A stretch of 52,159 nucleotides of DNA, taken from a virus. The stretch covers positions 1-52,159 of the IMG/VR virus record IMGVR_UViG_3300022689_000138; one strand, written 5' to 3'. A program made the position numbers and the translations under genes. Below are positions 2,690-6,416 of the stretch, one piece after another (the stretch's first letter is position 1; every line of letters begins with the position of its first letter). Below the pieces are notes generated by a model, which was not told the DNA's origin, ran no database searches, and saw nothing but the letters and a program-made list of their open reading frames with translations.

Positions 2690-3643
2690 TTAATTTCTTA
2701 TTGTATTATTAATAAAATTATAAACATCTTCTAACATTCTTTGATTATTTGGCTCTGGCAATTCTTTGAAATAATTAACAGCGCCGTCAAAATATAATGG
2801 AGATATAGTACCTCCACCTCCTTCACGGCCTCCAAGAATTTCTAAAAATCTAATATTATCTTTAAAAAATTTTATATCATAACCTTGATACATTGGTATT
2901 TCATGTCTAAAAGGACTAAAAACACCTAAAATAACATTAGCGTCTCTTTGTGTTAATTTACAATCACCTAAACCATCTAAAGTAGGTTTTAATCTGTTTG
3001 CTTTCATATTTTCAACAGACTCTTGTGAAGATGCTTGTTGTTGAACTACTACAGGTATATAATTAAAGTTATTTCTTAGTCTAATTAGATAGTCAGAAGA
3101 TAATTGTACAATAGATTCATGTAAATTCATTTGTCTACCATCTTTTTTTTCTGTACTAATTAAACTAATATGATCTATTATCACCATTACATATTCTTCA
3201 GAATCATTTGGTTCATAATAATCATTAACTTTTTTATTATATTTTTCTCCTGTTTTATTATTGACAAATTGAACAGTTTTTTTATGATATGTACCATTCA
3301 TTAGAGCATATTGTTCTACAAATTTAAATATACCTGTAGGGTTTCTAATATCATCAATAAATTCAACAATTTCTTCTATTTTTTTAAAGTACTTTTCATA
3401 CTTTGCAATTAAATATATAACATCGTCTGATAATATATTATCTGCTTTAGTTGATTTTAAGTCTTTAGGAGCCACTCTAATGCCTTCTTTTACATATAAT
3501 ATGTTAGAGAAAGCAGCGAGCATTTTCTCTTCTTTAGACATCTCTAAAGTAAAATAAAATATTTTCAGACGTATGTTTAGATTATTATCAATAACTTGTC
3601 TAATAGTATTATACAGAAACAGCCAATCTGTTATCTGCGTTTT
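2690..3643 (-). CDS. DnaB/RecA-type replicative helicase, exon 2
   Basis: This is the 3' exon (317 codons) of a helicase split by a group I intron. It starts at K-T of the Walker A motif, followed by Q-I-T-D-W-L-F. A Walker B-like V-M-V-I-I-D-H lies near residue 155 of the exon, and V-V-V-Q-Q-Q then L-G-D-C-K match the later sensor regions of SF4 (DnaB-like) ATPases. Joined to exon 1 at 6252-6416 it gives 372 aa with an intact N-S-K-V-G-K-T P-loop. At 372 aa it lacks room for the N-terminal primase-interacting domain of full DnaB, as in several phage helicases. Without splicing the P-loop is destroyed. Confidence 0.85.
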   Translation of the reverse strand, partial: KTQITDWLFLYNTIRQVIDNNLNIRLKIFYFTLEMSKEEKMLAAFSNILYVKEGIRVAPKDLKSTKADNILSDDVIYLIAKYEKYFKKIEEIVEFIDDIRNPTGIFKFVEQYALMNGTYHKKTVQFVNNKTGEKYNKKVNDYYEPNDSEEYVMVIIDHISLISTEKKDGRQMNLHESIVQLSSDYLIRLRNNFNYIPVVVQQQASSQESVENMKANRLKPTLDGLGDCKLTQRDANVILGVFSPFRHEIPMYQGYDIKFFKDNIRFLEILGGREGGGGTISPLYFDGAVNYFKELPEPNNQRMLEDVYNFINNTIRN

Positions 3644-4125
3644 CATTTTGTTACTTCAAGAGTACAGAACCTAACAGCTGCCATTACGCTGGTGTTTTGT
3701 GGATTTTGGTATTGAATATAATTCAAGATTCCACGCAGGGTTACTGATTTGTTCTGGCCTTATCCTAGTACTATTAACCCTTTTTCCTAGTGGGGCTATT
3801 CTCCCCTACAATCAGAGTACTCTTGAGGTGTAATCATTTCTGTTACACTCTATATGTCACCATATAGTTCGGACTATCTCTTCAACCTAATAATTACATT
3901 CATTATGACAACCGATTTTACTTTCATTAGCACAATCGCATTGTTTAGGCTGGCTCTTGTTAGTCTCTACACCGTTTTGTGAATAATATTTAAAAAAAGT
4001 TTAAATACCATCTCTAACACCTTTAAAATAGGTATCTCTTGAATTGTTATCAAACTCACTTATTCTATTTTTTTCAAGTAAATCTTCTATTACTTGTATA
4101 TCATCAAGTGACGGCACGGGATTGT
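3644..4125 (-). ncRNA. 3' catalytic core of the group I intron
   Basis: On the minus strand the segment holds GACAAUCCCGUGC at about 4114-4126, identical to my recollection of the T4 td intron P4 side. Next come GUGUAGAGACUA at 3961-3972 (P7 5' strand) and AGCCUAA paired with UUAGGUU (P8). AGAGAUAGUCC follows at about 3871-3881 (P7 3' strand). A CUAUAUG-GUGA-CAUAUAG hairpin at 3850-3867 and a 9-bp long-range helix CAAGAGUAC/GUACUCUUG make a P9 domain before the 3' splice site. Confidence 0.85.
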
Positions 4126-4141
4126 CTTTAAAATTATACAT
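4001..4141 (-). CDS. Possible 46-aa frame overlapping the intron core
   Basis: An ATG at 4141 overlaps the stop of the 197-aa gene and opens MYNFKDNPVPSLDDIQVIED, ending G-V-R-D-G-I. The start-stop overlap argues for translation, but the frame runs through the P4 3' strand and P6 of the intron, so the bases are also constrained as RNA. It may be chance, or a protein extension tolerated by the ribozyme. Confidence 0.3.
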   Translation of the reverse strand: MYNFKDNPVPSLDDIQVIEDLLEKNRISEFDNNSRDTYFKGVRDGI

Positions 4142-4727
4142 TATAAAAAAAATTATTAACAGAGTTAATACCCTGTTTTTTTACATTAAGAAAATCTTTA
4201 GTACTTTTTATTTTAACTTTGTATGGAGTAAAAGAATGTCCTTCAGCCCAATATTTAATATTTTTATGATCTGTTAATCTAGAATAAAAATCACAAAATC
4301 TTTTTAATTTATTTCTATATTTAGATTTTCCATTTTTTAATAGATTTAAAAATTGTAACGCATAATTAGGATAATCAGTACTTTGATATCCTAACCTTTC
4401 AAATAAAAATCTTACTAAAGTAAGTACTAATAAGTTGAAGTAACGATTTTTAAATGCTTTGAATTCAAAGTAATTTTTTTTAATTGTTACATCTTCTAGT
4501 TTTAACATATCTACAATATATTTTATATAAAAATCTTCATATTTTTCAGTAGTTTTTACAGTAAAATCATGTATATATATTTTTTCTATATCATCAAATG
4601 AATGAGGTAAAGAACTAAAACAATTTCTATTAGTGCCTAATTGTTCTTTTTCACCATTATTAAAAATAATACCGAAATTACAATTTTTACACCATACATG
4701 TTCATTGTGCTTATTAGTTAAACTCAT
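4134..4727 (-). CDS. Intron-borne protein of unknown function (197 aa)
   Basis: A 197-aa basic protein with one early C-K-N-C pair (residues 13-16) and otherwise mixed helix and aromatic content. I see no LAGLIDADG, GIY-YIG or HNH signature, so it is not an obvious homing endonuclease. It lies two bases downstream of the 107-aa gene and with it fills the P5 loop of the group I intron. It could be a degenerate or new intron mobility factor, a maturase-like RNA binder, or a cargo gene. Confidence 0.6.
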   Translation of the reverse strand: MSLTNKHNEHVWCKNCNFGIIFNNGEKEQLGTNRNCFSSLPHSFDDIEKIYIHDFTVKTTEKYEDFYIKYIVDMLKLEDVTIKKNYFEFKAFKNRYFNLLVLTLVRFLFERLGYQSTDYPNYALQFLNLLKNGKSKYRNKLKRFCDFYSRLTDHKNIKYWAEGHSFTPYKVKIKSTKDFLNVKKQGINSVNNFFYNV

Positions 4728-4729
4728 AA

Positions 4730-5053
4730 TTAAAGATTTTTAATATATAATTTTAAATCTCCAGTATTAGGATAACCTACTCTTCTTTCAAAAATATGTT
4801 TATTTTCAAATCCTAAAGATATAAGATTTTTTTCTAACATATGTTCTCCAGGAGAAACTACTGTAAATACAGCTGTTTGTCCATTACCTGTAGTAACACC
4901 TACTTCAGTATTTTTCTTTTTTTCTTCTTTTAATTGAGTTAATATATCTTTTATATCTTGTTTTGAAGTATAATTATTTACTCTACTTAGTTGACAAAAA
5001 GCACAACAATCTGTAGTTGTTTTTACAATGTTATTTTTTAATATTGTTTGCAT
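4730..5053 (-). CDS. Intron-borne protein of unknown function (107 aa)
   Basis: The protein has a C-C-A-F-C cluster near residues 16-20 and a compact C-terminal half with G-N-G-Q-T-A-V-F-T-V-V-S-P-G-E and R-R-V-G-Y-P-N-T-G-D-L-K-L-Y. This reads as a small folded alpha/beta domain. It resembles phage proteins I have seen without known function. It begins about 35 bases after the P4 5' strand of the intron, inside the P5 loop. Confidence 0.6.
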   Translation of the reverse strand: MQTILKNNIVKTTTDCCAFCQLSRVNNYTSKQDIKDILTQLKEEKKKNTEVGVTTGNGQTAVFTVVSPGEHMLEKNLISLGFENKHIFERRVGYPNTGDLKLYIKNL

Positions 5054-5090
5054 AATTTTTTTTATTTTGTTTTAATAAAGAGTTTCCCCG

Positions 5091-6203
5091 TTAGAAAGAT
5101 AATAAACTTATACCTTTATCTTCTTTTTCTTGTCTTTTTTTATGTTCTTTAATTAATTTTTTTTTTAATTTTTCAGTATAAAAAGGCACATATTTTATCT
5201 TCCCTTTTTTTTCGAGCTTTTTAACAAAAAAATATAGAAATATATTATAAGCATTAGAATATTTTAAACATTTTCTATTAGAAACTTCATTATATAAATC
5301 TGTATTATTAAAATAAATCATATTTACATATATAGTACTACTTGTATTAGGATTTATATAATCATATATTCTATTTAATTTTAAATTAAGAATATATTCA
5401 TATAAAAATTCAGCAGATTCTAACTGACACTCAATAAGATGATTAATTAAAGGAGCACGTCCTCTTTTTACAAAAAGATAAGACATAAATTGATCTTGTA
5501 TATCTTCTTTTTCTTTTTTATTAAGATTTTTAAGCTCACTAACATCTACTAAATTATCAGAGTGTCGATACGAAATAGTCTGTCCACAACAATCAGGATG
5601 TTTTTGTAATGTAAATAAAGAATATTTATCTACATAACCTATCTCATTAAGTTTTAACTTATTTGTAAATAAAAATTCAAATGTACGCGTTTCTGATTGT
5701 TTAGATGTATTACAGATTAATAAGTTTTTTAATCTATAATCTGCATTAAATTTTTCACCTGTTATTAAATTTAATTCATAAAGATAACACTCTCTTATTT
5801 TTGATATATTATGAAAATAAACTATATGTTTATTATATAAATCGTCTTCATTAATATATTTCATTTTTAAAATACTATCTTTTACTACAAGATTATTTAC
5901 ATTAGTATTAATTGAAACATTTTTTTCTTTACAGTGATTATAAATTCTCATAACATATCTTAACCGTGTTTCATTAATAAAATAATATGTTTCAGATGAT
6001 CCTTTGCCACATAACTCAAGCTCATAAGCAAAATATACTTTCTCTATAGTTCCTTTATTTTTATTAAATACATGTAAAGGTTCATTTAAATTTTGAGTTA
6101 CATGGTTATTAAAAACATCTATAAAAGAAATTTTATGTTTTATAAAATCTATTTTTACAGGTAGTTGTTTAATACTTTCTAATAAATCGTATGTTATTTC
6201 CAT
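5091..6203 (-). CDS. Intron-borne protein of unknown function (370 aa)
   Basis: This 370-aa frame starts 15 bases after the P2 hairpin of the group I intron and ends where the P4 strand AACGGGG begins, so the stop codon TAA overlaps the ribozyme core. It is lysine and tyrosine rich with a strongly basic C terminus (K-K-K-L-I-K-E-H-K-K-R), which suggests nucleic acid binding. No known endonuclease motif was seen. P-D-C-C-G near residue 204 is the only cysteine cluster. It could be an unrecognised homing or maturase protein, or a phage gene that the intron has engulfed. Confidence 0.65.
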   Translation of the reverse strand: MEITYDLLESIKQLPVKIDFIKHKISFIDVFNNHVTQNLNEPLHVFNKNKGTIEKVYFAYELELCGKGSSETYYFINETRLRYVMRIYNHCKEKNVSINTNVNNLVVKDSILKMKYINEDDLYNKHIVYFHNISKIRECYLYELNLITGEKFNADYRLKNLLICNTSKQSETRTFEFLFTNKLKLNEIGYVDKYSLFTLQKHPDCCGQTISYRHSDNLVDVSELKNLNKKEKEDIQDQFMSYLFVKRGRAPLINHLIECQLESAEFLYEYILNLKLNRIYDYINPNTSSTIYVNMIYFNNTDLYNEVSNRKCLKYSNAYNIFLYFFVKKLEKKGKIKYVPFYTEKLKKKLIKEHKKRQEKEDKGISLLSF

Positions 6204-6251
6204 TTTTTTTGTTTTTACTATAATTATTACTAATTACAGGGGCAAAACTTT

Positions 6252-6416
6252 ACCCACTTTACTATTAGCTGTTATTAAATAATATCTACCTTGTTCTATT
6301 CCTGGTAATTCGTTTTCAAATCTAGGTAACCCCCAAGGTATACAATTAACTAAACCAGATAGTAATCTATCTTTACGTTCAATAATTGAGGTTTTTACTC
6401 TTTCAAATAATGCCAT
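6252..6416 (-). CDS. DnaB/RecA-type replicative helicase, exon 1
   Basis: The 5' exon encodes the first 55 residues, from M-A-L-F-E-R-V to N-S-K-V-G, stopping within the Walker A motif. Translation past the splice site would add only K-V-L-P-L before a stop inside the intron, giving a 60-aa dead product. The exon ends in GGGT, which base-pairs with the intron guide sequence. It starts two bases after the end of the 56-aa gene upstream. Confidence 0.85.

Follow-up and report, generated by a model that had tools for sequence, protein, structure and literature searches.

We are interested in what interrupts the helicase gene of a crAss-like phage within its P-loop and in what the interrupting DNA carries. 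The gene lies on the minus strand of an IMG/VR virus contig of 52,159 bases, which was analysed as a whole and is called the window hereafter. Two minus-strand open reading frames (ORFs), 6416-6234 (beginning MALFERVKTS...) and 3646-2690, flank 2.6 kb of DNA. An initial annotation had interpreted this DNA as a group I intron and a homing element, leaving unreported the three ORFs in the intron loops and a reading frame running through the ribozyme core. The usual description of a phage group I intron is that of a ribozyme together with one endonuclease ORF. The T4 td-type introns with I-TevI resemble the present case in having a group I core within a phage gene of nucleotide or DNA metabolism and an ORF in a peripheral loop (PMC2988022), but whereas td has one endonuclease ORF, the window has several ORFs in several loops, none of them a known endonuclease. 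Group I introns that likewise interrupt core genes within the order Crassvirales have been found in Delta/Zeta gut crAss-like phages (PMC7886860); this prior work by Yutin et al. is repeated in a review (PMC10136315). This helicase site, multi-gene introns and the 9-nt exon presented below were all undescribed in our literature search, which is weak evidence as subscription journals mostly, and bioRxiv wholly, lay outside its scope.

A Group I Intron in the Helicase P-Loop

Joining 6416-6252 to 3643-2690 results in a single open DnaB-like helicase frame containing ...ANSKVGKTQITDW..., and a cut at 6251 and 3644 gives the single frame ...YYLITANSKVGKTQITDWLFLYN... and an insert of 2,608 nt with a terminal G (Table 1). 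The DnaB-like nature of exon 2 is indicated by Pfam DnaB_C (E 4e-5) and the PHROG DnaB helicase family (E 7e-7). The insert is located between the Gly and Lys codons of the helicase P-loop. This placement, proposed in the initial annotation, is borne out by the empty alleles, the same-site relatives, the covarying helices and the complete core of the window described below. Its splice boundaries, with 6251 as the first and 3644 (G) as the last intron base on the minus strand, hold as well, and joining the exons restores NSKVGKT as claimed within one open helicase frame. An intein, considered as another reading of the insert, was ruled out: the insert is out of frame and encodes several ORFs. 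The intron stands far above chance because 27 other non-redundant loci carry an insertion at the same place, every intron ending in G. The group I intron at this helicase site is real.

Table 1. Coordinates of the helicase exons, the intron, its core elements and its reading frames in the window.
Feature	Position	Strand	Basis or remark
Exon 1, DnaB-like helicase gene, ends ...NSKVG	6252-6416	-	ORF; in-frame splice to exon 2; similar exon 1 in relatives
Exon 2, helicase gene, starts KTQITDW...	2690-3643	-	Pfam DnaB_C, PHROG DnaB helicase; 66 viral loci with relatives
Group I intron of 2,608 nt, ending with G at 3644	3644-6251	-	Splice frame, relatives, core pairs; sub-threshold RF00028 at 3850-4001
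Internal guide GUUUUGCCC	6240-6248	-	GCCC with exon GGGU (P1), GUUUU with exon 2 AAAAC (P10)
P2 hairpin, GUAA loop	6220-6237	-	7/7 pairs covary across introns
370-aa ORF, new family cl7, between P2 and P4	5091-6203	-	Homologues in L003, L007, L015 and L066 introns
P3 5' strand GCUC (probable), within 370-aa ORF	5214-5217	-	Pairs with GAGC 3956-3953; P3 covaries in family
P4 5' strand ACGGGG	5086-5091	-	Core pairing, family alignment
P5 5' strand CUUU	5077-5080	-	Core pairing, family alignment
107-aa ORF, family cl3, P5 loop	4730-5053	-	Clustering; model resembles half of GNAT fold
197-aa ORF, new family f197, P5 loop	4134-4727	-	Also free-standing beside helicase in relatives
46-aa remnant of through-core ORF	4001-4141	-	Ends at stop codon in P6; intact copies in relatives
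P5 3' strand AAAG	4126-4129	-	Core pairing, family alignment
P4 3' strand UCCCGU	4116-4121	-	Core pairing, family alignment
P6 5' strand GCCGU	4111-4115	-	Core pairing, family alignment
P6 3' strand ACGGU	3971-3975	-	Core pairing, family alignment
P7 5' strand GACUA	3961-3965	-	Last pair covaries A-U / G-C / U-A
P3 3' strand GAGC	3953-3956	-	Core pairing, family alignment
P8 5' strand	3945-3951	-	Core pairing, family alignment
P8 3' strand, contains stop codon TAG of through-core frame	3884-3890	-	Core pairing, family alignment
P7 3' strand UAGUC	3872-3876	-	Core pairing, family alignment
P9 hairpin	3850-3867	-	Sequence

The Ribozyme Core and Its Covariation

The guide pairs with both exons, forming P1 with a U.G pair at the 5' splice site and P10, both as previously claimed. 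The P2, P4, P5, P7 and P8 pairs could be found where they had been reported or were easily located, as was P6, and P3, which had not been listed, could be added. All 47 scored pairs of P1, P2, P3, P4, P5, P6, P7, P8 and P10 form in the window. Among 18 same-site introns (alignment A2), 94.6% of the cells are paired and 25 of the 47 pairs have changed on both sides. The 500 shuffles all gave lower values, and slid partners give 4–8 changed pairs. The core alignment was joined by hand from segments cut at conserved anchors; invariant anchored pairs therefore carry no weight, and the varying pairs alone count. P10 covaries with the exon, as GAUUU with AAAUC in phage phi14:2 and in two further loci (L053 and L057). 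P3 occurs as CUCA/UGAG, UUCC/GGAA and CUCC/GGAG in relatives and as GCUC/GAGC in the window. The P3 5' motif of the window, GCUCGAA, is expected by chance in 1% of shuffles as an exact motif and in 25% with wobble tolerance, and its assignment within the 370-aa ORF is probably correct. We saw no P7.1/P7.2 in the window core because the 3' strand of P3 directly follows the 5' strand of P7.

The Rfam model RF00028 matched the record at 3850-4001 with 37.1 bits and an E-value of 1.4e-9, but this score lies below the curated cut-off of 50 bits, and cmscan with Rfam reported nothing on the window. The gathering score is a rule for annotation and no defining feature of group I introns. The core represented in Rfam is compact, and the score drops with kilobase inserts; in the window, the core helices are spread over kilobases, and the weak RF00028 score is probably due to the kilobase-scale cargo in P3/P4 and P5. 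Rfam at the gathering cut-off found no matches on eight related loci, either. Annotation relying on Rfam or on endonucleases consequently overlooks such introns, and the split helicases stay “hypothetical proteins”, as in phi14:2.

Filled and Empty Sites in Related Phages

The closest named genome is that of Cellulophaga phage phi14:2 (KC821624; Crassvirales, Steigviridae), in which an intron, unannotated in the record, divides the helicase between the same two codons (...AAAGTGGGT/AGACAGATTTGCCCC ... AACGATAG/AAATCACAAATT, slashes marking the splits). With the guide GAUUUGCCC and an exon 2 beginning AAAUC, its P10 has changed together with the exon. The phi14:2 intron thus shares with that of the window the site, the core, a co-varied guide and the reading frame from P4 to P8, but differs in that its cargo comes from other families, with no similarity between the two cargos by BLASTP, and in that its through-core ORF is open. 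A sub-threshold group I match (41.5 bits) was also observed in phi14:2 between gp029 and gp031 (KC821624.1, 10677-10983; L001 3737-4043). Both genes are annotated as DNA polymerase, which is probably intron-split, too.

Scanning helicase-bearing viral contigs yielded 66 loci, with 27 filled (phi14:2 and 26 environmental) and 25 empty non-redundant alleles, these calls being made by projecting both exons by protein alignment alone. The empty alleles are uninterrupted, e.g., AAAGTAGGT/AAAACACAA in L008, and a terminal G was found in every same-site intron. The homologues of the window intron, called intron B, range from 761 to 3,574 nt in length; L017 has the longest projected insert (4,091 nt), which includes another intron as well. 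In L028, the intron (at about 3295) resides 4 nt upstream of the usual site (AAAGGT/.../AGGAAA), with a partly adapted guide and a terminal G. In L059 (2506-2540), either the 5' splice site is shifted or it is separated from the guide by about 30 additional bases, and the record of L030 (G011) contains a helicase match with one internal TAA at 57632-58561.

On a helicase tree built without the P-loop columns, the distribution of filled and empty sites takes 6 changes, three of them forced by well-supported branches, vs. 17.7 in shuffles. Occupancy of the site is clustered, yet patchy. The exon 2 proteins of L009 and L017 are 96% identical, and only L017 has a long version of the other intron, intron A, and, between the P7 strands, a LAGLIDADG gene. 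This difference is a recent gain or loss.

Intron A, another group I intron situated 9 nt upstream of intron B, was recognized in eight loci (L009, L015, L017, L018, L026, L033, L038 and L042), where exon 1 ends at AATAGT and is followed by intron A (302–1,241 nt), by a 9-nt exon such as AAAGTGGGT (KVG) bearing the P1 bases of intron B, and then by intron B. Intron A, located at 2300-2601 in L009, is absent from the window. RF00028 reaches up to 99.5 bits in intron A records, and matches at the position of intron A in L009 and L010.

Genes in the Intron Loops and Beside the Helicase

Clustering of the ORFs across the same-site introns gave about ten families, located in P2-P4, P5, P6-P8 and after P7, with up to six loop genes in one intron. 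The three loop ORFs of the window have no significant match in Pfam, PHROGs or NCBIfam (the 370-aa ORF has a non-significant PHROG match only), and no homing endonuclease of a known family was found among them with these libraries. Single-sequence pattern scans found no relatives of the 370- and 197-aa ORFs; these emerged only from the helicase loci. Families cl1, cl5 and cl8 are mutually related (hhalign probability 73–95%), and Pfam and PHROGs searches with 32 members of cl1 returned only scattered marginal matches. LAGLIDADG_2 genes are present in three introns only (L016, L017 and L052), in P8 between the P7 strands, with Pfam E-values of 3e-38 for L017 and 2e-19 for L052, the two that were searched with Pfam; that of L016 was assigned by clustering.

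Between close relatives, dN/dS is 0.11 for the 107-aa family (one pair) and 0.28 for the 197-aa family. The cargo genes show mostly 0.1–0.6, and the helicase 0.08–0.17 in intron-bearing pairs where it was computable. Values for cl4 and cl2 reach up to 0.9 (cl4, 0.89), so clear maintenance is not general to all cargo genes. The model of the 107-aa protein (pLDDT 82.5 from 18 sequences, with low confidence at residues 53-57) is similar to GNAT acetyltransferases in their C-terminal half (Z 9.0 across 80 residues; Foldseek E 5e-3 with probability 1.0), a predicted half-fold resemblance that demonstrates no function. The confident model of the 197-aa protein (pLDDT 89.7, pTM 0.88) had no confident match in fold searches of the PDB; its top two Foldseek hits are LAGLIDADG enzymes at non-significant E-values (0.12 and 0.19; TM 0.16–0.18), and the best row in VIA-align scored Z 4.6 in a list without LAGLIDADG enzymes.

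The cargo families also occur outside introns. The uninterrupted helicases of L084 and L081 (P-loop SSKIGKS) are immediately preceded by a cl8 gene and immediately followed by 107-aa and cl1 genes. In 19 of the 25 empty alleles, free-standing members are found no farther than 2.5 kb from the helicase; members inside the intron occur in 27 of the 27 filled alleles, only seven of which have them also outside the intron within that distance. The 27/27 is partly by construction, as the families were defined from introns, unlike the free-standing copies in empty alleles, and these counts represent non-independent events, the empty loci being clustered on the helicase tree. In genomes of 77–105 kb, 35 of 36 cl1, 9 of 9 f197 and 4 of 4 cl3 (107-aa) genes lie within 12 kb of the helicase. 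The pattern fits free-standing genes and the intron having exchanged material in the manner of collaborative homing (PMC2988022), with a putative nuclease activity of the genes involved.

A Reading Frame Through the Core

Among the introns, 22 have a long P6, and in these a reading frame starts before the 3' strand of P4 (KDNPVPS) and crosses P6, the 5' strand of P7 (NGVET), the 3' strand of P3, and P8. The spacing between its anchors takes many values from 104 to 194 nt, in one codon phase; L018 is an exception to this count owing to a misplaced anchor, and its frame still reads through. The frame is open beyond the 5' strand of P7 in 21 of the 22 introns, the sole exception being that of the window with its stop in P6 after 46 residues. 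The loop part of the frame is unconserved in sequence, with dN/dS above 1 in two distant pairs, so selection may act on the continuity of the frame, on its cysteine-rich C-terminal part, or on both. ORFs that extend into group I cores are already known (PMC3984707), so the through-core frame is a variant and introduces no new principle. In intron B of L018, the P4/P7 coding motif occurs twice in one open through-core frame (intron positions 937-1389), like a partial duplication of the core.

Inferred Splicing and Mobility, and the Possible Role of the Cargo

We consider it very probable that 3644-6251 is a group I intron able to splice, and most likely one that is mobile at a single fixed site. 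Both activities are inferred from the anatomy described above, with the chemistry taken from group I introns generally. The guide in the transcript would line up the end of exon 1 (GGGU) with AAAAC at the start of exon 2. A P7-bound guanosine would attack after the U, the freed exon 1 would then attack after the terminal G, and exon joining would restore the P-loop. The location between Gly and Lys protects the intron, because nothing short of precise excision restores the helicase. A decayed or non-splicing intron, with the helicase made as two polypeptides or dead in this phage, would agree with the very large insert and the broken through-core ORF of the window; we regard it as quite improbable, given that every scored core pair is intact, that purifying selection on the helicase exons is strong in the intron-bearing relatives, and that a split of the P-loop between G and K is expected to wreck both halves. 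An assembly chimera or contamination, which the metagenomic origin of the contig could suggest, is hardly credible, as the cultured phage phi14:2 and many independent assemblies have the same arrangement.

The intron would presumably spread by a homing endonuclease cleaving empty alleles, such as the LAGLIDADG type in some relatives. The earlier designation as a homing element agrees with the patchy occupancy of the site and with these LAGLIDADG genes, but the intron ORFs of the window match no known endonuclease family, and we therefore do not class the window copy as a homing intron. Carrying no recognizable endonuclease, it might be mobilized in trans, might encode an endonuclease of an unfamiliar kind, or might now be inherited vertically. 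The loops of these introns have turned into docking places for other phage genes, i.e., those of 370, 107 and 197 residues here and other families in relatives, most of which are under purifying selection and come from a pool otherwise free beside the helicase. Such a pool is expected if free-standing homing-type or accessory genes exchange material with the intron.

As for the cargo itself, we see an even chance that it consists of ordinary accessory genes of the replication module that recombined locally into tolerant loops and play no role in mobility. The same families standing free around the helicase, the absence of nuclease family matches and the GNAT-like half-fold of the 107-aa model point in this direction, yet the association with a single target, the fast evolution and the repeated entry into introns would also suit homing-type genes, and a true LAGLIDADG gene resides in P8 of three introns. 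That cl1/cl5/cl8, f197, cl3, cl2 and cl7 include new homing endonucleases, or partners in collaborative or intronless homing, is a possibility that we take seriously while leaning against it. The families reside either in the intron or next to the empty target, the 197-aa model has LAGLIDADG enzymes as its two, albeit non-significant, top hits, and T4-like phages provide established cases of both free-standing and collaborative homing (PMC2988022); against this, no catalytic motif was recognized, VIA-align placed no LAGLIDADG enzyme in its list, and the 107-aa fold is unlike a nuclease. A more speculative and rather unlikely reading would be that these introns are composite mobile gene cassettes, in which the ribozyme gathers new homing-associated families near its target and its core also codes for a small, often cysteine-rich protein (P4-P6-P7-P3-P8). 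If true, this would couple ribozyme folding to translation.

The multi-gene cargo, the free-standing counterparts at the empty site and the through-core frame are the points of special interest. One site exists in 27 natural versions, whose loop genes number as many as six and belong to about ten families, and in 25 empty ones often with related families adjacent. This natural series lends itself to tests of how an intron acquires free-standing genes, of whether the unfamiliar proteins encoded in these introns are homing enzymes of a new kind, and of the extent to which a ribozyme core tolerates serving as a reading frame. Elsewhere in the window, we observed a spore photoproduct lyase-like radical SAM protein at 1147-2010 (Pfam E 3e-23) in this phage genome.
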